A DNA stretch of 64,000 bases from Actinomycetota bacterium (GCA_014360655.1 JACIXC010000011.1:1-64000); one strand, 5' to 3'; shown: positions 7,671-22,133, counted from the first letter of the stretch. Numbers and translations: made by a program. The notes: a model not told the origin generated them from the sequence alone.

Positions 7671-7800
7671 GGAGGGTTGCGGCCGTCTCGGGACAGCGGA
7701 AAGGGAGAGAGCGGCGGAGCGTGGTAGACGCGGGTGCCGTACCTTTTCTGGGGGCGCTATCCGGGTCGGGCGCAAGGCCATCCCCGGCGGCGAGCTTCGT

Positions 7801-7829
7801 TTGACGCTTTCCGGCGCAGTATTTATACT
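7801..7829 (+). promoter_or_regulatory. Promoter of tRNA-Ala
   Basis: TTGACG (7801-7806), a 17-base spacer and TATACT (7824-7829) lie 31 bases before the tRNA. This is close to the sigma-A consensus and is correctly spaced for a stable RNA gene. Confidence 0.75.
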
Positions 7830-7859
7830 TCATAAGGGCCTCTCCTGAGGCGAAGAAAA

Positions 7860-7934
7860 GGGGCCGTGGCGCAGTGGGAGCGCGCTACCTTGGCATGGTA
7901 GAGGTCACGGGTTCAAGTCCCGTCGGCTCCACCA
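7860..7934 (+). tRNA. tRNA-Ala (anticodon GGC)
   Basis: A full cloverleaf can be folded. The acceptor stem GGGGCCG (7860-7866) pairs with CGGCTCC (7924-7930). The D stem is GCGC/GCGC and the anticodon stem CTACC/GGTAG has loop TTGGCAT with anticodon GGC at 7892-7894. The T arm is ACGGG-TTCAAGT-CCCGT. The acceptor contains the G3-U70 pair that identifies alanine tRNAs. CCA is encoded at 7932-7934. Confidence 0.95.
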
Positions 7935-7940
7935 GCAGGA

Positions 7941-7971
7941 GACCGGGAAAGGCGGGAACGCCTTCCCGGTC
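7941..7971 (+). terminator. Hairpin after tRNA-Ala (possible terminator or processing structure)
   Basis: Arms 7941-7954 and 7959-7971 form a 13-bp stem with one bulged A and a GGAA loop. No U-tract follows directly, so it is a weak intrinsic terminator by sequence. It lies inside the first copy of a direct repeat (7945-7981). Confidence 0.45.
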
Positions 7972-8055
7972 CTCGTTCATGTTTGACGGCAATGCCGGCG
8001 ACGAGGGTGCGATACGGAAGGGAAAGGCGGCAAACCTTCCCGGTCCTCGTTCATG
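7945..8055. repeat. Imperfect 36-37 bp direct repeat downstream of the tRNA
   Basis: Copies at 7945-7981 and 8020-8055 share GGGAAAGGCGG, a short variable centre and the identical 21-base stretch at 7961-7981 and 8035-8055. Both copies can fold into a GGGAAAGG/CCTTCCC hairpin. They lie in the 332-base gap (7935-8266) between the tRNA and the first lipoprotein gene; no gene is visible in that gap. Confidence 0.7.
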
Positions 8056-8266
8056 GAACGGCAAGCGGCACGGCATCGCGGCTTGAGCGGAATGCCCCGA
8101 CGTGAGGGTAGGCCGGTCGCGGGCGCGGAGCGCACGGGGGCCCGGTGGAAGTGGACGGGAGGTGGCGAAGCCGTCATGATTAAGATGGGAAATCGGAAGC
8201 AGGGATGGTCGTTGGAGGAAGCCGGGACGGGGATGGCGGAGGCATGGGCCGAAAGGAGGAGATAAA

Positions 8267-8776
8267 TTGAAGAGAGCGGCGGTTCTCCTGCTCACCGCGG
8301 GCTTGCTCGCGGGCATGGTGGCGCTGGTGGGTTGCGGAGAAAAGAAGACCACCCTCGAGACCCCCGAGGGCAGGGTCGAGGTGAGCGAGGAGGGAGGAGG
8401 AAAGATAACCTACAGGACGGGGGAGGGCGAGGCCACCTACGAGCAGGCGACCGAGGTCCCCTCCGAAGAGGAGCTCGGGGCTCCCATCTATCCCGGCGCC
8501 GAGTTCAACGAGGAGGGCAGCGGCTCGGTGACCGGGAGCAGCGCGGAGGGAGAATACAGCTCGCTGGTAGCGGAATTCGATACCAGGGACGACTTCGACA
8601 AGGTCCATTCCTGGTACAAGGGAAAACTCGGCGAACCCCTTTACGTTGACAGCGAGGCGAGGGAGGCGAACTGGAGCAAGGTCGAGGGAGGCAGGGTGGT
8701 CTCCGTCTCCATCCAGGGGGAGGACGTCGGGGTGAAGATCATCATCTCCAGCACCTCCGCACCCCTGAGCCCTTAG
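8267..8776 (+). CDS. Lipoprotein of unknown function, paralogue of the 8970-9581 product
   Basis: The 169-residue product starts at TTG 8267 after AAAGGAGGAG. It has a basic N-terminus, a hydrophobic stretch and lipobox LVGC with Cys23, so it is exported and lipid-anchored. After an acidic linker it carries PSEEELGAPIYPGAEF, then GSVTG, an F-T-R-D-D-F segment and WYKGKLGEPLY, ending in a beta-rich segment. The same module occurs in the next gene. I do not recognise a named family. Confidence 0.75.
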   Translation: MKRAAVLLLTAGLLAGMVALVGCGEKKTTLETPEGRVEVSEEGGGKITYRTGEGEATYEQATEVPSEEELGAPIYPGAEFNEEGSGSVTGSSAEGEYSSLVAEFDTRDDFDKVHSWYKGKLGEPLYVDSEAREANWSKVEGGRVVSVSIQGEDVGVKIIISSTSAPLSP

Positions 8777-8969
8777 GGCGAACGAGGTGAACGCGTGTGC
8801 ATGACGTCCGTCCGCTTGGCCGGGTGACCGCGGCCCCCGCCGTGCCGGGACGTGATGCGGGACGGGTGGGCGGACGGGGCGTTGGAGGCCGGAGGCGCGC
8901 GGGTTACGATCCATGCGTGATGGGAAGACGGCGGCAGCGTTGATGATAAGAAGGGAGGAAGGAGGACCG

Positions 8970-9581
8970 ATGCGTGCGAGCGAACGCCAGGGCGGCAAGG
9001 TCATAGTCTGCCTCCTTGTCCTCTTCCTGATGGCGACCTGGCTCGCTTTCATCCCGGGTTGCGGGGGGAAGAAGGAACAGGACGGGACCGTCGAGGATGC
9101 CGCTCTGGAGGAGACGCCGGGAGAGGGAGGCGAAGAGGTCGCGCCATCCTCCGGGGAGGGAGCGGAAGGGGAAGGCGTTGATGTCCCAGCGGATGAGGCC
9201 GCCGGGGAGGGGCAGGTCGGCGAGGGGGAGGTTTCCTACCAGGTATACCAGGAGGCGCCCAGCGAGGATGAGCTCGGGGCTCCCATCTACCCCGGGGCCG
9301 CTTACGTCCCCGAAAGCGGCGGCAGCGTCAGCGGTGTCGCCCCGGAGGGAGAGTTCACCACCGTTGGAGGGGAGTTCCGCACGCAGGACCCGTTCGGGTT
9401 GGTGCTCGCCTGGTACCGTGAAAGGCTGGGCGAGCCCCTTTTCCTCGAGGAAAGCCAGTCCACGGCCACCTGGAGCAGAAGGGAAGGCGGCAATATGGTG
9501 CTGGTGGGGCTGCGCGGGGAGGCGTCCGGGACCACCATCTCCATCTACAACCTGCAGGGAAGCGAGGAGTTGTTGCCCTGA
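8970..9581 (+). CDS. Lipoprotein of unknown function, second copy of the module
   Basis: The 203-residue protein starts at ATG 8970 after AAGGAGG. Residues 10-30 are hydrophobic and end in the lipobox IPGC with Cys31. A Glu/Gly-rich linker (about 36-90) precedes the shared module: PSEDELGAPIYPGAAY, GSVSGV, F-R-T-Q-D-P-F, WYRERLGEPLFL and a final beta-rich stretch. Similarity to the neighbouring gene indicates an old tandem duplication with a longer linker. Upstream in-frame starts at 8913 or 8943 exist but lack a matching signal peptide. Confidence 0.75.
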   Translation: MRASERQGGKVIVCLLVLFLMATWLAFIPGCGGKKEQDGTVEDAALEETPGEGGEEVAPSSGEGAEGEGVDVPADEAAGEGQVGEGEVSYQVYQEAPSEDELGAPIYPGAAYVPESGGSVSGVAPEGEFTTVGGEFRTQDPFGLVLAWYRERLGEPLFLEESQSTATWSRREGGNMVLVGLRGEASGTTISIYNLQGSEELLP

Positions 9582-9689
9582 GGCGAGGGCGCGGCGGGAA
9601 GGGCACGCCGCGGCGGCGACGCTCGCGCATATCCCATGGGAACCCCACTTTGCAGGACCTTCATCCTGCGACCACATCCACGGTCCGAG

Positions 9690-9719
9690 TTGACGCTGCG
9701 GGAAGAGCGATAATATAGT
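9690..9719 (+). promoter_or_regulatory. Candidate promoter in the gap before the acyl-CoA ligase gene
   Basis: TTGACG (9690-9695), an 18-base spacer and TATAGT (9714-9719); an alternative -10 is TAATAT at 9711-9716. It lies about 320 bases before the ligase start inside a gene-free stretch (9582-10039). Otherwise that stretch shows only an AT-rich patch at 9911-9940 and no clear ORF. Confidence 0.45.
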
Positions 9720-10039
9720 ATTGACGCGTCAGCCGGAAGTCGTTTCGTGTCGTGGCGCACGGATGGTATCGCGCATCCTCTCGTATTAAGGATCAGGAGC
9801 AGGGAGGGCTGTCGGCCGCGAGGCGATGCGAGCCGGCGATCCCCCGAACCTCGTGGCCCTACTGCAAGGGGAGCCCGGGGAGGTCGCGGTCCGTTGCTTG
9901 CTTGCAAGCGAACATAATCGTAGAATATGTATAAATATTGATGGAGGAGAGAGCGGCCGGAGGTGCGAAGGGCTCACCGATGCGGGTACTAAGGCCGTTC
10001 GGTGAAGCCGCTTGAGAAAAGAAGGAGGGGGTTGCGCTC

Positions 10040-11881
10040 ATGGAATACCCGTGGTTCAAGGAATACGACCTCTGCGGCATACCGCACACGCTGGAACCCT
10101 ACCCGAACATCCCCACGCACGGCTTCCTGGACCAGGCGGCGGTGGAGCATCCCAAGATGGGCTGCGTGCAGCTCGGCCTGGAGATGACCTACGCGGAGGT
10201 CAAGGAACACGCCGATCGCCTGGCCAACGCGCTGGCCGACATGGGCGTGGGCAAAGGGGAACGGGTTATCACCCTCCTGCCGTCATCCATCCAGTTCGTG
10301 GTGGCGGACGCCGCCATCTCCAAGGCCGGCGCGGTGCACGTGCCCTGCAGCTTCCTGGAGGCGCGCGACACCCTGGCCCACAAGTGTCAGGAGAGTTCCC
10401 CGCGCGCCGTCATCTGCCTGGAGGAGCATCTGGCGATGGCGGAATACCTCAAGGAGTTCATGTCCGCGCCGAACATCATCATCACCAAGCTGGATGATTA
10501 TTCCAGCTCAACGTCGCCGCGCGGCGCCCTGCCGGACGTCATGTGGATGAGCGAGTTGATAGAGCAGGCCAGGCCACAGCCTCCCCGCGTGGACATCGAT
10601 CCCGCCCGCGACCTGGAGACCCTTCTCTTCACCGGCGGGACCACCGGCCTTCCCAAGGGGTGCATGCTCACCCATCGCAACATCGTGGCCAACGTGCTGC
10701 AGAACATCGCCGTCTTCGGGCCGGTCACCAAGGTTCTCAAGGGGAATATCAACGTGATCATGGGACTGCCCTTCTTCCACAGCTACGGGCACTGCATCAT
10801 GCACACCATGATCGGAGGCATGGGGGCCAACATGCTCATCGTCCCCGACCCGCGGGACGTGAAGGCCATGCTGGAGATCATGCGCAAGTACAACCCGGTG
10901 CTGCAGTTCGGGGTCCCAACCCAGTTCATGAAGATGCTCGAGGAGGACATCAAGTCCGCGAGGGTCATCGGCATCTCGGGATCGGCCGCCCTGCCGCCGA
11001 ACGTGCAGGAGAAGTTCGAGGAGTCCAGCGGCGGGGGGTATGTGTCCGAGGGTTACGGCCTCTCCGAGCTCTCCCCGGTGACCCACTTCAACGTCTCCAC
11101 CAACGTGCGCGTCATGGGGGGGCGCAAGGGCGTGAAGATACTCAACGTCGTCCTCTTCAACCCGGTGAGCATCGCCCTGACCAGGGCCCAGGCCAAGCTC
11201 CTCGGCCCCAAGGGCTTCGGGAAGATGTTCACGGGCATCATCAGCCTGCTGGCCAAGAGGTCCCGCAAGTCCGAGAAAACCCGCGTGGTGGAGAGGCGGG
11301 CCACCATCGGCATACCCCTGCCGGACACAGTGGTCAAGGTGGTGGAGGTGGACAGCGGCCGCCCGCTCACCTTCGAGGAACTCTACCGCGAGGGAAAGGT
11401 GGGCGAGATGCTCCTGAGCGGCCCGCAGCGCATGCTGGGCTACTGGCCGGAGCCGGGAAAGGGGCTGGACGAGGAGGGATTCGTCCACACCGGCGACGTG
11501 GTGAAGATGGACGAGAACGGGTACTTCGCCATCGTGGACCGCACCAAGGACATGGTCATCGTCTCAGGTTACAAGGTCTACACGCGGGAGGTGGACGACA
11601 TCCTCTACGACCATCCGGCCACCGAGATGGCGGCGACCATAGGGGTGCCCGACCCGGAGAGGGAGGGCAGCGAGCGCGTGTGGGTCTTCGTCAAGCTGAA
11701 GGAGGAATACAAGGGAAAGGTCAGCGAGGAGGACTACATCGACTACCTCAAGGAGAAGGTGGCGAAGTACGCCGTGCCGCGTGAGGTGGTCTTCGTGGAC
11801 GAGATGCCGCTCACCGAGGTCTTCAAGGTCAACAAGAAGGCCCTGCGCGAGATGCAGCTTCAGAAGATGCAGATGGAATAG
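10040..11881 (+). CDS. AMP-forming acyl-CoA ligase (long-chain fatty-acid-CoA ligase type)
   Basis: ANL-superfamily enzymes activate a carboxylic acid with ATP and form a CoA thioester. The 613-residue product shows the phosphate-binding loop LLFTGGTTGLPKG (about 194-206), the A5-type motif EGYGLSELSPVTH (about 335), HTGDVVKMDENG (about 482) and DRTKDMVIVSGYKVY, plus a C-terminal Lys in EVFKVNKKALRE (about 594-605). An insertion of about 50 residues follows the YGLSE region. The substrate cannot be read from sequence. It has its own terminator at 11902-11930. Confidence 0.88.
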   Translation: MEYPWFKEYDLCGIPHTLEPYPNIPTHGFLDQAAVEHPKMGCVQLGLEMTYAEVKEHADRLANALADMGVGKGERVITLLPSSIQFVVADAAISKAGAVHVPCSFLEARDTLAHKCQESSPRAVICLEEHLAMAEYLKEFMSAPNIIITKLDDYSSSTSPRGALPDVMWMSELIEQARPQPPRVDIDPARDLETLLFTGGTTGLPKGCMLTHRNIVANVLQNIAVFGPVTKVLKGNINVIMGLPFFHSYGHCIMHTMIGGMGANMLIVPDPRDVKAMLEIMRKYNPVLQFGVPTQFMKMLEEDIKSARVIGISGSAALPPNVQEKFEESSGGGYVSEGYGLSELSPVTHFNVSTNVRVMGGRKGVKILNVVLFNPVSIALTRAQAKLLGPKGFGKMFTGIISLLAKRSRKSEKTRVVERRATIGIPLPDTVVKVVEVDSGRPLTFEELYREGKVGEMLLSGPQRMLGYWPEPGKGLDEEGFVHTGDVVKMDENGYFAIVDRTKDMVIVSGYKVYTREVDDILYDHPATEMAATIGVPDPEREGSERVWVFVKLKEEYKGKVSEEDYIDYLKEKVAKYAVPREVVFVDEMPLTEVFKVNKKALREMQLQKMQME

Positions 11882-12063: not shown

Positions 12064-12822
12064 TCAGTCGAGGAACCCGCTCTCCAGCACGCAGCGCCGC
12101 ACCGCCAGCAGGGCCGGGCAGGAGGGGATTTCCAGGAAGTCGGCGCCCCGGGCGTCGTGGTCTTTCACCGTGTCGTCCTCCGGGACATACCCCAGGAAGG
12201 GCAGGTCGCTGGAGGAGAGCAGGCGGGCGGCCTCCTCCTCGTCGCCGACGCGGTTGAGGAGCAGTCCCAGCTTGCGGTAGGCGACCGCCTGCGCGGCCAC
12301 CTCGCGTATGGATTCCGCCACGCGCAGGCCCTTTACGGTGACGTCGCTGACCAGGAGGAGATGGCTCACCGAGCGCATGACGCGGCGGTTCACCTGCTCC
12401 ACACCCGCCTCCGCGTCGATGAGGGTGAGGTGAAAATGGGAGGAGAGGGTCTCGATGGCCTCGCGCAGCAGGGTGTTCAGCTGGCAGTAGCAGCCCTCCT
12501 CCTCCGGCCTTCCCACCGAGAGGAAGGCGAGGTTCCCGTCCTCCTCCACTATCTCCATCATCTTGTAGTCGATGGAGGCCGCAAGGTCGACGCTGTCGGT
12601 GGCGCGTTCGCGCACCGCGTCGATGAGCTCGCTGCGCATATCGTTCACGGTGAGGCGCGGGAAGCGGCGCAGGGCCATGCCCAGCCCCACGGCGGGGTCG
12701 GCGTCCACCACCAGGTACCTGTGGCGCTCGTCCGCGCGCAGTTCGCGCGCGAGGAGCGCGGAGACGGTGGTCTTTCCCACCCCTCCCTTGCCGCACACGG
12801 CAAGGACCCGTTTACCGCTCAC
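12064..12822 (-). CDS. CooC-like P-loop ATPase (nickel-enzyme maturation type)
   Basis: CooC/AcsF proteins are MinD-type ATPases that help insert nickel into CO dehydrogenase or acetyl-CoA synthase. This 252-residue protein has the deviant Walker A GKGGVGKTT (11-19), DADP at about 40-43, and a Cys-x-Cys pair (C111, C113), the position where CooC dimers bind metal. LIDAEAGVEQVNRR is also typical of this group. GTG 12822 overlaps the stop of the AcsB-like gene (GTGA), so it is the last gene of a six-gene operon. The client enzyme is inferred, not shown. Confidence 0.82.
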   Translation of the reverse strand: MSGKRVLAVCGKGGVGKTTVSALLARELRADERHRYLVVDADPAVGLGMALRRFPRLTVNDMRSELIDAVRERATDSVDLAASIDYKMMEIVEEDGNLAFLSVGRPEEEGCYCQLNTLLREAIETLSSHFHLTLIDAEAGVEQVNRRVMRSVSHLLLVSDVTVKGLRVAESIREVAAQAVAYRKLGLLLNRVGDEEEAARLLSSSDLPFLGYVPEDDTVKDHDARGADFLEIPSCPALLAVRRCVLESGFLD

Positions 12823-13550
12823 CTGCCGCCCCCCTCGCCGCCGCGCTCCGCCTGCAGGCGGTCACGGATGCGGCGCAGCTCCACCACGCTGTCGCAGACC
12901 TCCACGTATTCGCAGGTATCGCAGTCGAAGTTCATCTCCTCGTACATCTTGATGAGGGCCTGCACGATGTCCATGACCATGTCGGCCGCCGCCGACAGCC
13001 CCTCGATGTCCTCCCGGGATGACGTCACCAGGAGCACCTCCGCGCCGCTCACGTAGGGCAGCGCCTTGAGGGCGCGGATGAGGGCGCTTCCCAGAATCCG
13101 CGCGTTGAAACCCCGGGCCAGGGCCTCCTTGCTCACCCGGCACCATATGCTCTGCCGTCCCGGGAAGATGCGGGTCATGAAGCCGCGCAGGCCAAGGTTA
13201 TAGGTCGCGTCGCGCAGCTCGCGGTAGCACTCGTACTCGTCGCGGAAGTCGCCCTCCACCATGACCACCTGCGCGAAAGGGACGGCGCGCGCCCGCAGCG
13301 CGGGGAAGTCGGGGCCCACCAGGGTGATGCGCCCGTCGACCACCCCCTGCTCGTCGTCCCAGAGGAGGAGGGAGCGGGAGGCCGTGCCCGGGTTGCCGAG
13401 CTCCAGCCCGGTGTCCTCGCTCAGGATCACCTGGGGGGAGGAGGCCAGGGGAAGCGCGGGGGTGTAGCGGTATTCCACGGCCTGCCCCATGGAATATTTT
13501 TCCTCGAGAAAGCGGCGTATCCCCTGCAGGGGTTCTGCGAAGAGTCCCAC
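12819..13550 (-). CDS. Short AcsB/CdhC-like protein (acetyl-CoA synthase beta-subunit homologue)
   Basis: The 243-residue product resembles the central part of the acetyl-CoA synthase/decarbonylase beta subunit. It has ITLVGPDFPAL (about 75-85), GFMTRIFPGRQSIWCRVSK (about 123-141), an aligned helix-strand run and a C-terminal Cys cluster C210-x2-C213-x5-C219, where the family begins its A-cluster cysteines. Real AcsB/CdhC proteins are two to three times longer, so most of the catalytic protein is missing. GTG 13550 with GGAG upstream is preferred over TTG 13568. Placement beside a CooC-like gene suggests nickel or Fe-S handling. Confidence 0.65.
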   Translation of the reverse strand: MGLFAEPLQGIRRFLEEKYSMGQAVEYRYTPALPLASSPQVILSEDTGLELGNPGTASRSLLLWDDEQGVVDGRITLVGPDFPALRARAVPFAQVVMVEGDFRDEYECYRELRDATYNLGLRGFMTRIFPGRQSIWCRVSKEALARGFNARILGSALIRALKALPYVSGAEVLLVTSSREDIEGLSAAADMVMDIVQALIKMYEEMNFDCDTCEYVEVCDSVVELRRIRDRLQAERGGEGGGR

Positions 13551-13551
13551 T

Positions 13552-14322
13552 TCACTCCGTTTCCGCAAGCAGGGCGGCGCCCACCGCCGCCGCCAGGCGC
13601 GTGTCCAGCGGGAAGGGTTGGTACTCGCCTTCCATGCGCTCGCGCACCAGGTCCACCACCGTCCTCACCCTGGCCACGCCGCCGGTGAAGGTGTAACGGT
13701 TCCCCATGCCGAAGCGGCGGGCCTGGGAGGTGACTATGCGCGCCACGGCGTCGCACAACCCGGCCACGATGTCCTGCGGCGACTCGCCGTTGTTGACGTG
13801 CGTTATGACCTCGCTCTCGACGAAGACCCCGCACTGGGAACTTATGGAAACACGTTTCGCGGCGCGCGAAGCCTCCTCGTCTATGCGCTCCACCGGGACA
13901 CCCACCGCGGCCGCCATCACCTCCAGGAACCGCCCGGACCCCGAGGCGCACTTGTCGTTGCGCATGAAGTCGACGACCTCGCCGTCCGCGTTGAGGAGCA
14001 GGGAGGTGATGCTCTGGCCCCCGATGTCCACCACCAGTTCCACGTCGGGAAGGAAGCAGCGGGCGGCCCAGCCGATGCAGGCGATCTCGTCCTCCAGGAA
14101 ATCGGCGTCCTGCAGGAGTTCCGCGCCGCTCCCCGTGCCCACGATGCCGTCCAGGTTGAAGCGGCTGACGCCCGCCTCGCGACATACCTCCTCGATGAGG
14201 TTTTCTATCTCGTCGGCGATGTTGCCCGTGGTCTCCACGATCCTGTAGGCCAGGAGGTTTTCGCCGTCCATGACGACGGCCTTGGAGAAGAGGCTCCCGA
14301 TGTCGCAGCCCAGCGTCTTCAT
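13552..14322 (-). CDS. Acyl-CoA dehydratase/reductase activator ATPase (BcrD/HgdC family), copy 2
   Basis: ASKHA-fold activators couple ATP hydrolysis to one-electron transfer from a bridging [4Fe-4S] cluster to an HgdB-type reductase. The 256 residues carry CDIGSLFSKAV (6-16), VGTGSG, DIGGQSIT (99-106), NDKCASGSGRF with C125 and SSQCGVFVESEV with C164, the two cluster ligands contributed by each subunit. A Gln-Ser pair replaces the Gln-Asp seen in copy 1. ATG overlaps the stop of copy 1 by 4 bases. Confidence 0.88.
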   Translation of the reverse strand: MKTLGCDIGSLFSKAVVMDGENLLAYRIVETTGNIADEIENLIEEVCREAGVSRFNLDGIVGTGSGAELLQDADFLEDEIACIGWAARCFLPDVELVVDIGGQSITSLLLNADGEVVDFMRNDKCASGSGRFLEVMAAAVGVPVERIDEEASRAAKRVSISSQCGVFVESEVITHVNNGESPQDIVAGLCDAVARIVTSQARRFGMGNRYTFTGGVARVRTVVDLVRERMEGEYQPFPLDTRLAAAVGAALLAETE

Positions 14323-15110
14323 CTCTCCCCTCCCATCTTGCGCGCGAGCACGGCCGCCCCCAGGGCGCCCACGATCTGCGGGTCCACCGGGCAGGGCACC
14401 ATCCTTACCCCCAGGATGCGCTCCAGTTCCGACTTCACGGCGCCGTTCTTGGCCACGCCCCCGGACATGGTCACCTCCGGCTCCACGCCCACGCGGCGGG
14501 CCAGCGCCGCGACCCTCTCCGCCATTGCCCGGTTGACGCTGGCGGCGATATCCGCCTTGTCCGTGCCGCGCTGCAGGTAGTGGAGGACCTCCGTCTCGCA
14601 GAAGATGCTGCAGCGGCTGGAGAGCCCCACCGGGTTGCGTGCCTTGAGGGAAAGGGTCCCCAGTTCATCCAGGGTGATGCCCAGGGTGCGGCACATGACC
14701 TCGAGGAAACGCCCGGTGCCGGCCGCGCACTTGTCGTTCATCACGAAGTCCTTGAGCTCGCCCGAGGCGTCCATGCGGATGACCTTGGCGTCCTGGCCCC
14801 CGATGTCGATGATGGTGCGCACCCCCGGCAGGAGCCACACGGCGCCCACGCCGTGGCAGGAGATCTCGCTCACGTTGGCGTGGGCGAGCCCCTTTGCCTG
14901 TACCTGTTCCCTGCCGTAGCCCGTGCTCACGATGTAGGAGATGTCCTGGTGCCGCAGCCCCAGCTCGGATAGGAGCATGCCCAGGACGGTCTCCGCCGAC
15001 TCCACCGGGTTCGGCCTCACCCCGATGCTCTTGCTCCCGGTTATCCTGCCGTTCTCCACCACCACCGCCTGGGCGGTCAGGGAGCCGACGTCTATGCCTC
15101 CGAACCTCAT
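14319..15110 (-). CDS. Acyl-CoA dehydratase/reductase activator ATPase (BcrA/HgdC family), copy 1
   Basis: Second member of the activator pair, 263 residues. Motifs are GIDVGSLTAQAVV, STGYGREQV (62-70), DIGGQDAKVI (102-111), NDKCAAGTGRFLE with C128, and SSRCSIFCETEV with C167 and an extra C171. GGVAKN near the C-terminus completes the nucleotide site. The two copies are clearly diverged, so they probably form a heterodimer, as BcrA and BcrD do in class I benzoyl-CoA reductase. GAGGTGAGGG precedes the ATG. A 104-base gap separates it from the upstream subunit gene. Confidence 0.9.
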   Translation of the reverse strand: MRFGGIDVGSLTAQAVVVENGRITGSKSIGVRPNPVESAETVLGMLLSELGLRHQDISYIVSTGYGREQVQAKGLAHANVSEISCHGVGAVWLLPGVRTIIDIGGQDAKVIRMDASGELKDFVMNDKCAAGTGRFLEVMCRTLGITLDELGTLSLKARNPVGLSSRCSIFCETEVLHYLQRGTDKADIAASVNRAMAERVAALARRVGVEPEVTMSGGVAKNGAVKSELERILGVRMVPCPVDPQIVGALGAAVLARKMGGER

Positions 15111-15214
15111 CCCTCACCTCCGATGGCCTTGCTCTCGCCGAAAGCTCCCCCCTACATTTTATCGTCACGCGGAACGGCGTGTCATGAGGGCGTACGGCGC
15201 GAAGAAGCGCACCT

Positions 15215-16633
15215 TCACGGCCTTTCCCTCGCGCGCCTGCGCCGCGTGACCACGTTGTCCACGAAGGAGGATATCTCCTCCTGCAGCACGCTTGTGGGCG
15301 TCATCCGCCGTATCCAGGAGTCCCCCTGCAGGCACAGCACGGGAGCGCCCGTGCGCCGGGTTATCTCCTTGCGCACCTGGTTGACGATGCTCCAGGTCTG
15401 CTTGCAGGCGTGGTGTCCCGAGTAGATGGCGCAGTTGGCGTTGAGGTCGCGGATGAAATGGGACATGTCCTCTATCCAGGAGAGGGACATGGAGTCCGCG
15501 CCCATCTGCCTGGTCATGGGATATTCGAACGAGGCCTCCGCCAGCCCGGCGAGCATGCTCTCCTTGCTTGTTGTATCCACGTGGCGTGGCTGGCAGAGGG
15601 AGAGGATGTCGTTGAGGTAGGTGATGCCGCGTTCCTCCATCCAGTTGAAGAAGCCGAGGAAGTCGAAGTAATACCCGATGTAAAGCCACATGCAGCGTGC
15701 CACTTCCTCCGGTGCCGGGTATGCCCCCTCCTCGCGGCGGCGGCGTGACAGCTCCACCATGGAGCGCATCATCTCCGCCGCCTGCGGCCTTCCCCAGCGC
15801 GTGAAGCGGGTGCCGTAGGTGAAAATGGAGAAGATGTTGGGCACGGGACAGGGGGAGAACTTCTTGAGGTCGTAGAGCTCGTAGTAGAGGTCGCTGGCGC
15901 GGTTGGCCTCCTCGAGCACCTCGCGCATGCGCCCCTCGTCCAGCTCCTCGCCGATCATCTCCTCCAGGCGGCGCATGAAGGCCATGAAGTAGCGGCGGTG
16001 CAGCTCCCTTCCCCGGGAGGTGGCCTCGGTGGGCTTTTCCAGGATGACCTGGGGGATGCCCATGTGGAGGGAGACGAACTCGTGGATCTTGGAGTTGGCG
16101 TCGCAGGCGCCGGGCGCGGACTGCACGATGATGTCCGGCTCGAAGTCGCGCCCGGTGAGGATGGACCCCAGCTCTATGGTGGAGGAGGAGCAGAGGTAAT
16201 CGGGGATCCCCAGGCCCATGGCATAGTCCCAGTACCTCTCGCCCTGGCCCTCCAGCACGGAGACCCCCAGGGTGGTCATGACCTCGCTGGTGAGGGGGAT
16301 GGCGTTGCGGAACAGGTAGATTATCTCGGGAGGGAAGTTGAAGGGCACCAGGACCACCTTGCGCCCCTCGGACTTCGCCCGCCGCACCTCCTGTACCCAT
16401 TCCCCGATCATCGCGATGAAGTCCAGGCTCACGTCGCGGAAGCGCGGGCAGAGGAGGGCGCGCATGGAGCGGGAAGTGTCCGGGGGCAGCACCCTGAGCA
16501 GCCCCTCCACCTCCTCGTCCGACATGCCGCGGGGAAGCTGCATGGCCACCTCCACGAGGCTCTCCACCCGTTCGAAGAGCCCTTCCGCTCCCCTCCGTGA
16601 CGTCGTGGGACCACCCTTGGCCATCTCTCTCAT
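15215..16633 (-). CDS. HgdB/BcrB-like 2-hydroxyacyl-CoA dehydratase family subunit (large)
   Basis: COG1775-type proteins hold a [4Fe-4S] or double-cubane cluster and receive electrons from the activator. The 472-residue product shows KVVLVPFNFPPEI (about 92-104), Cys148 in DYLCSSSTIEL, Cys177 in SAPGACDANS and two more Cys in NCAIYSGHHACKQTW (about 400-410), the spacing expected for cluster ligands. ATG 16633 overlaps the stop of the preceding subunit (ATGA), and GGAGAGG lies upstream. The substrate is unknown. Size matches BcrB/HgdB-type subunits. Confidence 0.85.
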   Translation of the reverse strand: MREMAKGGPTTSRRGAEGLFERVESLVEVAMQLPRGMSDEEVEGLLRVLPPDTSRSMRALLCPRFRDVSLDFIAMIGEWVQEVRRAKSEGRKVVLVPFNFPPEIIYLFRNAIPLTSEVMTTLGVSVLEGQGERYWDYAMGLGIPDYLCSSSTIELGSILTGRDFEPDIIVQSAPGACDANSKIHEFVSLHMGIPQVILEKPTEATSRGRELHRRYFMAFMRRLEEMIGEELDEGRMREVLEEANRASDLYYELYDLKKFSPCPVPNIFSIFTYGTRFTRWGRPQAAEMMRSMVELSRRRREEGAYPAPEEVARCMWLYIGYYFDFLGFFNWMEERGITYLNDILSLCQPRHVDTTSKESMLAGLAEASFEYPMTRQMGADSMSLSWIEDMSHFIRDLNANCAIYSGHHACKQTWSIVNQVRKEITRRTGAPVLCLQGDSWIRRMTPTSVLQEEISSFVDNVVTRRRRARERP

Positions 16634-17742
16634 CCCCCTATCCTCTCCAGGAAGGCCTGTATGCGCGTGCGTATGCGCCCCAGGTCGGCGCCCGACCCGT
16701 ACTCCTTCTCCAGCACCAGGACGGGTATCCCCGCCTCCTCCAGGTCCAGGCGCAGGCGCACGTTCTCCACGCCGTGCAGGTCGCAGAACTTGTTATGCAC
16801 CAGGACCGCCCCGTCCACGCGCGCCCGCCTCGCCGTACGCAACACGTAGTCGAGGCGCGTGGCGTAGTCGTCGAACATGCGGGGGCAGAGAAGGTGCTTC
16901 AGGTAGGCCTCGGCCAGCGCGTGAATGGGGTCGCCGGCGAGGCGCGGCAGGTTCCAGAAAGCCCTGGTGCCGTAACAGAGCGCGTCGCTCACCACTAGTC
17001 CCCCCACGTCCTCGATCTCCCCCACCAGCGCCAGCTCGTCCGTGGCGCTGCCGGCCAGCAGGAGGCGGGCGCGGTAGCCGCGGACCTCGTTCCTTTCGCT
17101 CTCTTCCAGGAATCGCGCCAGGTAGTCCTCGAACACCGCCGGCGGCAGGGAAGACTCGAGGAGGATGACGGCCATGGCCTGCCTGCCGGTGAGGGCGGGC
17201 CTCTCCCCCTCGCGCAGGGAGAAGAGCTCGCGCAGCTTTTCCCGCGTGCGGTTGCTCCTCTCCATGGCCTCCGCGAGGGAAGCGTCGCTTATATCGACCT
17301 GGAAGTGGCGTCCCAGCGCCTCGCGGAAGAGCTCCAGCTCCTCCGCGAAGAACTCCAGCGCCTCCTCGCTGACCGTGTGGGGAACCCGCAGGTAATGGAA
17401 GAACGCGGGATCCTTCGCGTACTGCCAGTCTTCGAACATGCCGCGCAGGTGGTCGCAGCCGTTGTTCTCCACCAGGCCGTCCAGGAAGTCGTAGGTGCCG
17501 TCGAGGCCCAGTTGCAGGCAGGCGCGGCAGAAGCCGCAGTTGAAGCGGGAGAGGTAAGCGTCGGCGAGCTCGCGCTCGGGCTTGCCCAGGGCCCTTATGC
17601 GGTAGGGGAGTATGCCCGCCGCGTCCATGATCTCCCGCGGCGTGGCCACGCAGGTATAGCCGACGATGCGACCTCCCGCCCGCCTCCATTCCTCGAGGTG
17701 GCTGTTCAGGATATCACCGGCCAGCCTGATGGCATCCTCCAT
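16630..17742 (-). CDS. HgdB/BcrC-like 2-hydroxyacyl-CoA dehydratase family subunit (small)
   Basis: The 370-residue first gene of the operon has YTCVATPREIMDAAGILPYR (30-48), a Cys cluster FNCGFCRACLQ (C69, C72, C75) and NGCDHLRG with C96, and VHNKFCDLHGVEN near residue 320. These are the cluster and fold motifs of the BcrC/HgdB superfamily. ATG 17742 with GGGAGGGAGAGG upstream is preferred over the 19-residue longer frame. Together with the next gene it gives two non-identical subunits, as in class I benzoyl-CoA reductase. Confidence 0.87.
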   Translation of the reverse strand: MEDAIRLAGDILNSHLEEWRRAGGRIVGYTCVATPREIMDAAGILPYRIRALGKPERELADAYLSRFNCGFCRACLQLGLDGTYDFLDGLVENNGCDHLRGMFEDWQYAKDPAFFHYLRVPHTVSEEALEFFAEELELFREALGRHFQVDISDASLAEAMERSNRTREKLRELFSLREGERPALTGRQAMAVILLESSLPPAVFEDYLARFLEESERNEVRGYRARLLLAGSATDELALVGEIEDVGGLVVSDALCYGTRAFWNLPRLAGDPIHALAEAYLKHLLCPRMFDDYATRLDYVLRTARRARVDGAVLVHNKFCDLHGVENVRLRLDLEEAGIPVLVLEKEYGSGADLGRIRTRIQAFLERIGG

Positions 17743-18117: not shown

Positions 18118-19047
18118 CTATTGCTTGAGCAGGCCTCCCAGGATGCCTCCCGCAGGTCCGCTGCCCCCGGACTTCGGTTGCTGCAGGCTGGTCTTGGGGG
18201 CTTCCTCGCTCGGCTGCACCACCACGTAGCCATCCCCCTGGAAGGCGAGCTGGAAGAGCTCGCCGTGGGTGGAGCCGAATATCCCCTTGAGGCTGGTGAG
18301 GTTGGCGTCCATGTGTATGGTTGGGTTCAGGCTCTGCGACCAGGCGATGGTGGCGTTGGGGTCCGTGAAGGTGGGTTGGTCGGGGGTGACCCTGAGGGTC
18401 ATGGGCTCTCCCTTGGAGATGAGGGCGAGGTAGCCTGTGCCCTGCAGTTCCACGGTCCAGAGACCGCCCGAAAGCATCCCTGCGGCACCTTTTATCATCT
18501 TGATGTCCCACGAGATGCTGGGGGTGAAGGCCAGCAGGTTGAGGGCCTCCACGGTGATGGACTCGTTGTTGAGATAGAGGAGCACGATGTCGTTGGCGGC
18601 GTCTGCCAGGAAGAGGTCTCCCGTGCCCTGGGCCAGCATGAGGGTGAAGGATTCGCCGGAAATGGCCTTCTTCACCCACTTGTCAATACCGCCGCTGCCC
18701 TGGCGCGTGAAGCTTATCTGCCCCTGGTAGGCGATCATGGAACCGGCCTTGGCCAGCACCTGCCCCCCGCAGGCGGCCATGTTCACGCGCAACAGTTTCT
18801 TGCTCTGCAGGTTGAAGGCGTTGGGGCTCTCCACTTCCATGGACTCCTTGACCAGCGCCGCGAGGGAAGTGGGTGCGAGCTCGGGGCGAACGGCGGACGG
18901 CGACGGCGCGGCTGCCGCCGGCGGCGGCGCGGATGCGGCGGGAGCCGCGGCCGCGGCAGAGGCGGAAGCGTCCTTCAGTGACTGTCCGCAGAAACGGCAG
19001 AACGCCGCACTCTCCGGGTTATCCTGGTTACACCGGGGACACAACAT
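18118..19047 (-). CDS. AIM24-family protein with N-terminal zinc ribbon
   Basis: The 309-residue product begins with a zinc-ribbon, CPRCNQDNPESAAFCRFCG (Cys 3, 6, 17, 20), followed by an Ala/Pro-rich linker to about residue 60. An AIM24-type beta-rich domain then follows, with LLRVNMAACGGQVLAKAGSM, repeated hydrophobic strands, LQGTGYLALISKGEP and GDGYVVVQPSEE. The AIM24 domain is widespread in bacteria but has no firm molecular role. It ends in a Gly-rich tail. GGAGAGGAGG precedes the ATG. It is transcribed alone. Confidence 0.8.
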   Translation of the reverse strand: MLCPRCNQDNPESAAFCRFCGQSLKDASASAAAAAPAASAPPPAAAAPSPSAVRPELAPTSLAALVKESMEVESPNAFNLQSKKLLRVNMAACGGQVLAKAGSMIAYQGQISFTRQGSGGIDKWVKKAISGESFTLMLAQGTGDLFLADAANDIVLLYLNNESITVEALNLLAFTPSISWDIKMIKGAAGMLSGGLWTVELQGTGYLALISKGEPMTLRVTPDQPTFTDPNATIAWSQSLNPTIHMDANLTSLKGIFGSTHGELFQLAFQGDGYVVVQPSEEAPKTSLQQPKSGGSGPAGGILGGLLKQ

Positions 19048-20171: not shown

Positions 20172-20319
20172 CATATGGAGCTCACAGGGAGCCATTTCTG
20201 CCGCATGGCGGTAGCGGGTGGGATGAGCTAGCCCGGGCGTTTAACGCACGCCTGTGCATGAGAGTGCGAAGTCGGGGTCCAGGGGGCGCGTCCCCCGCAG
20301 TAAGGAAAGGAGAGGGTTT

Positions 20320-21231
20320 ATGTCGGAGGTAAGATTTGACGATCGAGTCGCAGTAGTGACCGGGGCCGGCGGCGGCCTGGGTAGGGAATATGCCCTGCTC
20401 CTTGCCAGCCGCGGCTGCAAGGTGGTGGTCAACGACCTGGGCGGCGCCATGGACGGCACGGGTTCGGGGACCACCGCCGCCGAGAAAGTGGTGCAGGAGA
20501 TCAAGGACGCCGGCGGGGAGGCCGTGCCCAACTTCGACAGCGTGGCGGACTGGGAGAGCGCGCAGAACATCATCAAGACCGCCATCGACAACTATGGGCG
20601 CATCGACATCCTCATCAACAATGCCGGCATCCTGCGCGACAAGAGCTTCCTGAAGATGGAGCTCGAGGACTACGAGAAGGTCATGGCCGTCCACCTCAAC
20701 GGGTCCTTCTACTGCTGCAAGGCGGCCTGGCCCTACATGAGGGACAACAACTACGGCCGCATCGTTTCCGCCGCCTCCGCCGCCGGCGTGTACGGGAACT
20801 TCGGCCAGGCCAACTACGGCGCCGCCAAGATGGGCATCATAGGCCTCACGCACGTCCTCAAGCAGGAGGGTGCGAAGTACAACATCAAGGCCAACGTCAT
20901 CGTCCCCATCGCCGGGACGCGCATGACGGCCACCGTGCTTCCTCCCAACATCGTCGAGATCCTGAAGCCCGAGTACGTCGCCCCCATGGTGGTGTGGGCC
21001 TGCTCCGAGAACTGCAATTTCTCCGGTTATACCTTCACCGCGGGTGCCGGGTACTTCAGCCGCACCGCCTTCATCGAGGGCCCGGGCGTCTATTTCGACA
21101 TCTCGCAGCCCATCACCCTCGAGATGATCGACGAGAACATCGACAAGATCGTCACCCTGGAGGGCGGCACCACCTTCGAGAACGCCGCCGAGCAGACCGC
21201 CAAGGCCCTTGCCAAGATGAACCTGGGCTGA
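20320..21231 (+). CDS. Short-chain dehydrogenase, (R)-3-hydroxyacyl-CoA dehydrogenase (MFE-2) type
   Basis: The 303-residue SDR enzyme has VVTGAGGGLGREYALLLASRG for NAD(P) binding, VNDLGG after strand 2, NNAGILRDKSF, and the catalytic Ser-Tyr-Lys set in SAASAAGVYGNFGQANYGAAK. The DLGGAMDGTGSG segment and the long C-terminal region are characteristic of the dehydrogenase part of multifunctional enzyme type 2, which acts on 3-hydroxyacyl-CoA. ATG 20320 follows AAAGGAGAGGG. The MaoC gene 53 bases downstream supplies the matching hydratase activity. Confidence 0.85.
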   Translation: MSEVRFDDRVAVVTGAGGGLGREYALLLASRGCKVVVNDLGGAMDGTGSGTTAAEKVVQEIKDAGGEAVPNFDSVADWESAQNIIKTAIDNYGRIDILINNAGILRDKSFLKMELEDYEKVMAVHLNGSFYCCKAAWPYMRDNNYGRIVSAASAAGVYGNFGQANYGAAKMGIIGLTHVLKQEGAKYNIKANVIVPIAGTRMTATVLPPNIVEILKPEYVAPMVVWACSENCNFSGYTFTAGAGYFSRTAFIEGPGVYFDISQPITLEMIDENIDKIVTLEGGTTFENAAEQTAKALAKMNLG

Positions 21232-21284
21232 CGCGAAGCGGGCGTGGCGCGTGAAGGCAAGCGTAGAGAGAGGGGGTTGAAAAC

Positions 21285-22133
21285 ATGCCTATCGACCTGT
21301 CGGTAATCGGAAAGGAGCTGCCGCCCCTCGCTTACAACTACACCACCAGGGACGTCATCCTCTACGCCCTGGGAGTGGGAGCGGGCCTGCGGCCCGAGGA
21401 GCTGAAGTTCGTCTACGAGAACGGGCTCGAGGTGCTGCCCACCTTCGGCGTCATACCGCCTTTCCCGGCCCTCATGGGCCTGGTGGGCGTGGAGGGCATC
21501 GACATCAACCTGGTCATGCTCCTCCACGGGGAGCAGTACATGGAGGTGCGGCGCCATCCCATCCCCGTGCAGGGCAGCCTGACCTCCAAGCCGAAGATCG
21601 CCGCCGTCTACGACAAGACCAAGGGAGCCCTCATCGAGCTGGACGTGGACACGGTGGACGAGAACGGCGAGGTGATCTTCTTCAACAAGTTCGGCACCTT
21701 CATCCGCGGTGAGGGCGGCTTTGGGGGCGAGCGCGGCCCCGAGCCCGGCAACGAGCCTCCGGACAGGGCGCCCGACAAGGTGGTGGAGGAGGCCACCCTG
21801 CCCACGCAGGCGATGATCTACCGTCTCTCGGGCGACTACAACCCGCTGCACATCGATCCCAACATCGCGGCCATGGCGGGGTACGATAAGCCCATCCTGC
21901 ACGGGCTCTGCACCTTCGGTTTCGTCGGCCGGGCGGTGCTGCGCGAGTTCTGCGGCGACGATCCCAAGAAGTTCAAGGCCATCAAGGTGCGCTTCAGCCG
22001 CCACGTCTTCCCGGGCGAGACCATCGTCACCGAGATGTGGAAGGAATCCGACGACAAGATCATCGTGCGGGCCTCCACCAAGGAGCGCGGCGAGTACTGC
22101 CTTACCAACGCCGCCGTGTGGCTCAACCCGTAA
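21285..22133 (+). CDS. MaoC-like (R)-specific enoyl-CoA hydratase (hydratase 2)
   Basis: The 282-residue protein is a double-hotdog hydratase 2. The catalytic Asp/His motif occurs in LSGDYNPLHIDPNIAAMAGY with HGLCTFG after it. The N-terminal half is a degenerate hotdog starting VIGKELPPLAYNYTTRD. Such enzymes interconvert trans-2-enoyl-CoA and (R)-3-hydroxyacyl-CoA. With the adjacent SDR it makes two of the activities of an MFE-2 enzyme on separate chains. A terminator follows at 22155-22184. Confidence 0.9.
   Translation: MPIDLSVIGKELPPLAYNYTTRDVILYALGVGAGLRPEELKFVYENGLEVLPTFGVIPPFPALMGLVGVEGIDINLVMLLHGEQYMEVRRHPIPVQGSLTSKPKIAAVYDKTKGALIELDVDTVDENGEVIFFNKFGTFIRGEGGFGGERGPEPGNEPPDRAPDKVVEEATLPTQAMIYRLSGDYNPLHIDPNIAAMAGYDKPILHGLCTFGFVGRAVLREFCGDDPKKFKAIKVRFSRHVFPGETIVTEMWKESDDKIIVRASTKERGEYCLTNAAVWLNP

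Follow-up and report, generated by a model that had tools for sequence, protein, structure and literature searches.

What does a compact block of six genes do when it joins a reductase of the benzoyl-CoA reductase (BCR) kind with proteins that resemble parts of the CO dehydrogenase/acetyl-CoA synthase (CODH/ACS) machinery? This question is raised by a stretch of 64,000 nucleotides from an Actinomycetota bacterium (GCA_014360655.1, JACIXC010000011.1:1-64000; hereafter the window), in which the block lies on the minus strand at positions 12064–17742, all coordinates being those of the whole stretch unless a locus or contig is named. By Pfam, NCBIfam and structure matches, all six genes of the operon that was proposed in an initial annotation have been found on the minus strand at this place. 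They encode two HgdB-type subunits (HgdB_C and HgdB_B), two non-identical ASKHA activators (ASK1 and ASK2), a mini ACS-like protein (CdhCL), and a CooC-family ATPase (CooCL) (Table 1). Each of the six proteins comes from a known superfamily, and their assembly has not been found described. A literature search for this gene combination, judged mainly from titles and abstracts, gave no description of it, and the earlier statement was likewise that no described system is known with exactly this composition. Overall, no part that an ATP-driven double-cubane reductase needs is missing, and we file the unit with the class I BCR/HAD kind, though not as a benzoyl-CoA reductase.

Cluster ligands and folds of the reductase subunits

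In BzdN, the [8Fe-9S] double cubane is bound by Cys36/73/100/263/293/327, and in BzdO the catalytic [4Fe-4S]-OH2 cluster is bound by Cys95/128/380 (PMC11971306). HgdB_C scores best against BzdN and the double-cubane cluster protein (DCCP), with BzdN as the closest solved relative, and its Cys31/69/96/256/286/320 align with all six double-cubane ligands of BzdN. These cysteines are kept in at least 30 of the 31 homologues, the exception being a fragment. From its sequence, HgdB_C is predicted to carry an [8Fe-9S] double cubane. Together with the gene order, which is that of BcrCBAD, these features bear out the class I BCR-like subunit set that had been suggested for the locus.

Of the cysteines of HgdB_B, just three, Cys148, Cys177, and Cys410, are invariant across 34 homologues. 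Cys177 aligns with BzdO Cys128 and Cys148 stands at the place of BzdO Cys95, while Cys410 is the third cysteine by alignment to HadB and MbdO, not to BzdO itself. We infer that HgdB_B has a three-cysteine [4Fe-4S] site. In addition, its AlphaFold2 (AF2) model, with a pLDDT of 86, matches HadB at a TM-score of 0.85 (by target) and BzdO at 0.75. The position of the active-site His131 of BzdO is taken by an invariant Asn180, three residues past Cys177. The profile alignment with BzdO begins at residue 83, and the active-site Glu65 and Trp46 of BzdO are outside the aligned part. Judged by the aligned residues, the substrate pocket of HgdB_B is not that of benzoyl-CoA reductase.

Both activators score over the CoA_E_activ cut-off; Cys128 and Cys167 of ASK1 are invariant in 21 homologues, and Cys125 and Cys164 of ASK2 are likewise invariant, in line with the [4Fe-4S] cysteines that the two distinct activators of a class I BCR share. 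With the curated NCBIfam equivalogs, the scores are far below the cut-offs for all BCR, HAD, and DCCP profiles. For the BCR equivalogs, HgdB_C reaches 176 bits against a cut-off of 454 and HgdB_B 13 bits against 487, and the double_cubane (DCCP) equivalog gives 178.6 bits against 350. We do not file the unit as a benzoyl-CoA reductase, since it differs at the tested active-site position and falls short of the equivalog cut-offs. By the curated profile scores and the ligand sets, the HgdB-like proteins also do not place in a known dehydratase clade with an assigned substrate.

A truncated ACS-like protein and a CooC-like ATPase

CdhCL matches ACS by sequence over the middle domain only, and the PDB matches of its AF2 model (pLDDT 89) are ACS structures and nothing else. 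Its hhalign alignment with the ACS proteins of these genomes (98.6% probability, E 1e-14) reaches the A-cluster, where NFDCDTCEY---VEVC of CdhCL is paired with FYSCTLCQSFAPTHVC of ACS. The CxxCx5C motif of CdhCL is invariant in 24 homologues and equals the first three A-cluster Fe-S cysteines of ACS. On the other hand, CdhCL has no fourth A-cluster cysteine, no ACS N-terminal domain, and no CGC motif, which in ACS holds the distal nickel. Since the fourth ligand and the CGC motif are both absent, CdhCL cannot be a working acetyl-CoA synthase.

In CooCL, the motifs GKGGVGKT and GCYC are invariant in 22 homologues, and the closest solved structure is CooC of Carboxydothermus (3kje). In CooC, Cys112 and Cys114 hold Zn or Ni where the two monomers meet (PMC6006190).

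Conservation of a ten-gene unit

By neighbour clustering of the compared loci together with annotation, the six genes are recognised as the 3' part of a ten-gene operon, ACADb-ACADa-X3S-X3L-C-B-ASK1-ASK2-CdhCL-CooCL. That is, the six genes are linked as first proposed, but the complete unit has four additional upstream genes that had been missed, two for acyl-CoA dehydrogenase-like proteins (ACADb and ACADa) and two for helical proteins (X3S and X3L). All ten genes are found in order at locus L058, in the same family as the window genome, and near-complete versions exist in other genomes of the class, at L059, L060, L064, and L065. The ten genes are also all in order at L154, whose genome is from a different phylum, the one to which the 'Bacillota' metagenome-assembled genome L079 belongs. 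The order HgdB_C, HgdB_B (1–3 copies), ASK1, ASK2, CdhCL, CooCL is present in most of the 24 CdhCL-bearing genomes of the class. The block described in the initial annotation is thus conserved in other genomes, and because the same order is seen in loci across the class and again in a second phylum, a chance juxtaposition of the six genes is ruled out. In a quick tree, the CdhCL proteins of two genomes outside the phylum nest inside the class, beside those of family f2; a transfer of the whole ten-gene unit would give this pattern.

The ACAD proteins score best, though weakly, with cyclohexane-1-carbonyl-CoA dehydrogenase. X3S (~150 aa) and X3L (~550 aa) are mostly helical by appearance and are constant members of the unit (L015, L058, L114, L117, L154), and neither has a usable match in Pfam or NCBIfam. 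A hydrophobic C-terminal tail is clear in some X3L copies only, and membrane anchoring is not claimed.

In the window genome, the upstream part is found at other loci on contigs C18 (L015) and C3 (L013), both of which have a C/B pair of their own; L015 contains the ACADs, X3S, X3L, HgdB_C, and two HgdB_B. Between HgdB_C and the two HgdB_B of L015 (G000:C18:14000-33000), genes for a CCG/HdrD-like Fe-S protein and a MetV-like protein (PF12225) occupy 7800–9752 of the locus. These two were considered as a pathway clue and rejected, as they are absent from all other compared loci. A small additional family (cluster 25) is seen in C3-type loci.

Co-occurrence and copy number

We have counted CdhCL and the HgdB_B family in the 31 genomes of the class. 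CdhCL is found in 24 of them, always as a single copy. Both CdhCL and the B family are present in 24 genomes, B only in one, CdhCL only in none, and neither in six (Fisher p ~1e-5, uncorrected for shared ancestry). The wider sample comprises 794 genomes of two phyla, 396 of Actinomycetota and 398 of the other phylum, and a CdhCL-type match was defined by E < 1e-90 at full length. Among the 396 Actinomycetota genomes, such matches are restricted to this class, the next matches being true ACS proteins of ~730 aa at less than 65 bits, and among the 398 of the other phylum CdhCL is limited to G396 and G556. The HgdB_B family is present in 25 Actinomycetota genomes and two of the other phylum. Overall, 26 of the 794 genomes have both, one has B only (G007, 82% complete), none has CdhCL only, and the rest have neither. 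A genome contig scan with a single CdhCL sequence returned only close relatives and a few archaeal matches, which have 27–33% identity and resemble true CdhC; no relatives were found in the viral contigs scanned with CdhCL.

The copy numbers of the two families differ: a genome has 1–6 copies of HgdB_B versus one CdhCL. Several genomes of genera g6 and g3 have the block divided: ASK2-CdhCL-CooCL or CdhCL-CooCL is still at the ancestral site, and HgdB_C-HgdB_B-ASK1-ASK2-HgdB_B lies at a separate one (L049-L051, L053, L114-L116). The single CdhCL, compared with multiple copies of B, and this separate siting argue that CdhCL and CooCL act in trans on several reductases and do not belong permanently to a single one. 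The tight linkage with genes of the CooC and ACS kinds that was reported before is borne out; it had been missed that C and B are multi-copy and that the single-copy CdhCL and CooCL can sit apart from them.

The window genome (G000) has 2.97 Mb and is 99.96% complete. Its true CODH/ACS is on contig C2, with its own CooC, so the earlier remark that typical CO dehydrogenase genes are absent holds for the window but not for the genome. This genome is also unusually rich in HgdB-type enzymes, with further, more distant HGD-D loci at C9:46233, C13:14325-16593, C17:54660-56906, and C2:82026.

Proposed mechanism and alternative explanations

The reading that we prefer, with confidence slightly short of balanced, is an ATP-driven, low-potential acyl-CoA reductase that resembles class I BCR, works through a double cubane, and has a metal-maturation module built from parts of CODH/ACS. 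As in the rest of the family, ferredoxin would reduce the ASK1/ASK2 heterodimer, and ATP hydrolysis would raise the electrons to a very low potential. The electrons would gather on the putative [8Fe-9S] double cubane of C, whose ligands are in place, and pass to an open-iron-site [4Fe-4S] cluster in B, for which the cysteines and the fold are found, where a CoA-thioester would be reduced. The substrate would be an acyl-CoA, which need not be aromatic because His131 of BzdO is replaced by Asn. In the complete operon, the linked ACAD pair and the two helical proteins may feed or consume this acyl-CoA. CooCL and CdhCL would be a shared, sub-stoichiometric maturation pair: CooCL would load Ni or another metal on the three-cysteine site of CdhCL, and CdhCL would pass the metal or an Fe-S unit to the reductase or the activator.

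Several points weigh against this proposal, the first being its main weakness. Recombinant BzdNO from E. coli contains its double cubane (PMC11971306), which means that such clusters need no dedicated CooC/ACS-like helper; if so, either the pair would have a function peculiar to this system, or CdhCL itself would be a subunit with a role in redox chemistry or CoA binding. An Fe-S cluster for electron transfer might instead occupy the three-cysteine site of CdhCL. Nickel is a hypothetical element of the scheme, as is the nickel/Fe-S partner that, in the initial annotation, the reductase was supposed to need or reduce. In addition, the fold of HgdB_B is at least as close to the dehydratase HadB as to BzdO.

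The leading alternative, which we consider rather unlikely, keeps the same reductase and makes CdhCL a working subunit, which would bind CoA or take in electrons, hold a [4Fe-4S] cluster by its three cysteines, and dock substrate or ferredoxin, while CooCL services the cluster. It would explain why the ACS middle domain, which in ACS is associated with the binding of CoA and ferredoxin, and the three invariant cysteines are kept, and also the tight operon linkage, but it fits poorly with one CdhCL gene for several B genes per genome and with a CdhCL that is not always beside C/B. Another possibility, to which we give a low probability, is an ATP-driven, double-cubane HgdB-type reductase that would contain, or require, an iron-sulfur centre with nickel, in which CooCL and CdhCL would insert Ni or supply a Ni-Fe-S unit, with an acyl-CoA substrate and a paired ACAD. 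If it were true, this would be, to our knowledge, the first known nickel-dependent member of the BCR/HAD family.

Since B is closest in fold to HadB and acyl-CoA dehydrogenase genes are linked, the locus might also be read as a 2-hydroxyacyl-CoA dehydratase module that works with an acyl-CoA dehydrogenase, as in the reductive branch of Stickland metabolism (Had/Fld systems), plus accessory genes. We regard this as quite improbable, for HadC, the type of second subunit with a reduced cysteine set and a [4Fe-5S] cluster, is without two of the six double-cubane cysteines present in HgdB_C, two different activators are encoded and not one, neither a CoA-transferase nor EtfAB is among the ten operon genes, and the scores are far below the HadB/HadC equivalog cut-offs. 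Still less credit is due to an ordinary aromatic class I benzoyl-CoA reductase with CdhCL and CooCL as passengers. The bcrCBAD-like subunit set and order, the closeness of C to BzdN, and the weak best score of the ACADs with cyclohexane-1-carbonyl-CoA dehydrogenase would fit it, but all BCR equivalog cut-offs are missed widely, His131 of BzdO is an invariant Asn here, and CdhCL and the B family occur together almost without exception, which speaks against passengers. Finally, it is scarcely credible that CdhCL and CooCL are spare CODH/ACS maturation parts placed here by chance: although true ACS is also in 24 of the 26 CdhCL-bearing genomes, it stands in a separate neighbourhood that includes a CooC-like gene of its own (L067), no true ACS C-terminal domain is detected in G026 (98% complete) and G020, which do have CdhCL, and many ACS-bearing genomes of the 396 Actinomycetota are without CdhCL, which tracks the B family.

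The BCR/HAD-family enzymes perform reductions that are among the lowest in potential in biology, and few of them have an assigned substrate. If the proposed acyl-CoA reductase with its maturation module is true, parts of CODH/ACS, namely a truncated ACS with a partial A-cluster site and a CooC metallochaperone, would have been recruited outside the Wood-Ljungdahl pathway. The unit is a candidate new metal-dependent reductase in uncultured, little-known anaerobic actinobacteria, and it includes, with X3S and X3L, two protein families without usable database match.

Genomic context

The six genes are joined by three 4-base overlaps, ASK2 and CdhCL abut, and a gap of 104 bases precedes ASK1. The GC content at third codon positions is 0.90–0.93 in the six genes, which is usual for coding DNA of this genome. 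A weak sigma-70-like match lies in the 104-base gap between HgdB_B and ASK1, with no evidence of function.

Table 1 Positions of the operon genes, of selected motifs, and of adjoining genes in the window
Feature	Position	Strand	Description	Supporting match or remark
HgdB_C	16630-17742	-	BzdN/BcrC-type subunit, 370 aa	HGD-D 1e-82; BzdN 8s02_B 4.6e-56
HgdB_B	15215-16633	-	divergent BcrB/BzdO/HadB-type catalytic subunit, 472 aa	HGD-D 8.5e-42
ASK1	14319-15110	-	ASKHA ATPase/activator, BcrA/HgdC type, 263 aa	BcrAD_BadFG 1.4e-61
ASK2	13552-14322	-	second, non-identical ASKHA activator, BcrD type, 256 aa	BcrAD_BadFG 3.5e-44
CdhCL	12819-13550	-	mini acetyl-CoA-synthase-like, 243 aa, GTG start	CdhC PF03598 2.7e-12
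CooCL	12064-12822	-	CooC-family deviant-Walker-A ATPase, 252 aa	CooC 3kje 3.8e-13
Cys177 codon of HgdB_B	16103-16105	-	equivalent of BzdO Cys128 (profile alignment)	
CxxCx5C motif of CdhCL	12894-12923	-	Cys216, Cys219, Cys225 (numbering of the 249-aa open reading frame)	
GCYC motif of CooCL	12484-12495	-	CooC dimer-interface metal site (CxC)	
AMP-binding acyl-CoA ligase	10040-11881	+	context only	adjoins block in most genomes of family
SDR dehydrogenase and MFE-2/MaoC-type hydratase	20254-22133	+	beta-oxidation-like, context only	syntenic in family

Upstream of the block, a gene for an AIM24-family protein with an N-terminal zinc ribbon (18118–19047) is syntenic in the family, and in families f4 and f5 a metallophosphoesterase gene (P21) is found 3' of CooCL (L056, L059-L062, L065, L066). 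A PocR-domain histidine kinase and a response regulator are encoded beside many HgdB_C/B loci (L015 13117–15875; L114-L118; L120), which suggests induction by a small organic compound. At L063 (11770–14516; same contig as L118), CdhCL-CooCL is followed by genes for a CbbQ/NorQ-type AAA ATPase and a VWA protein, and MoxR-type AAA ATPase and CoxE-like VWA genes adjoin the C3-type ACAD-X3-HgdB_C-HgdB_B cluster (L013 398–2875; L129; L130). AAA ATPase/VWA pairs are known from metal-site maturation, and by this analogy those near the CdhCL-CooCL and C3-type loci are possible side evidence for metal insertion.

Comparison with known systems

Like the class I BCRs (BzdNOPQ, BcrCBAD, MbdONPQ), the unit has two HgdB-type subunits and two different ASKHA activators in the order C-B-A-D, with six [8Fe-9S] ligands in C and three [4Fe-4S] ligands in B. 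Unlike them, its B is very divergent, with the active-site His changed to Asn and the equivalog cut-offs missed, and the operon is linked to ACADs, two helical proteins, CdhCL, and CooCL. With DCCP and its activator DCCP-R it shares the double-cubane cysteines and probably the ASKHA-driven, ATP-dependent reduction, but DCCP is a homodimer, whereas the operon has two different subunits and two different activators. HadBC and HgdAB, with HadI or HgdC, are similar in the fold of B, in the ASKHA activator, and in a nearby acyl-CoA dehydrogenase; the differences are the six cluster cysteines in C versus four, and two activators versus a single one.

For the other two proteins, CdhCL resembles ACS (AcsB/CdhC) in the fold of the middle domain and in having A-cluster cysteines one to three, but it has 243 aa versus ~730, without the N-terminal domain, the fourth A-cluster cysteine, and CGC. 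CooCL has the deviant Walker A, the invariant CYC metal motif, and the DxEAGxExxNR stretch of the nickel-insertion ATPases CooC and AcsF, while it is linked to a BCR-type reductase and not to CODH/ACS. A reductase with its own nickel chaperones, HypA/HypB, outside the classical nickel enzymes has been proposed for the isoprene reductase operon of Acetobacterium wieringae (PMC10134865). That operon is an analogy only, as its oxidoreductase is unrelated and its chaperones are HypA/HypB and not CooC (PMC10134865).

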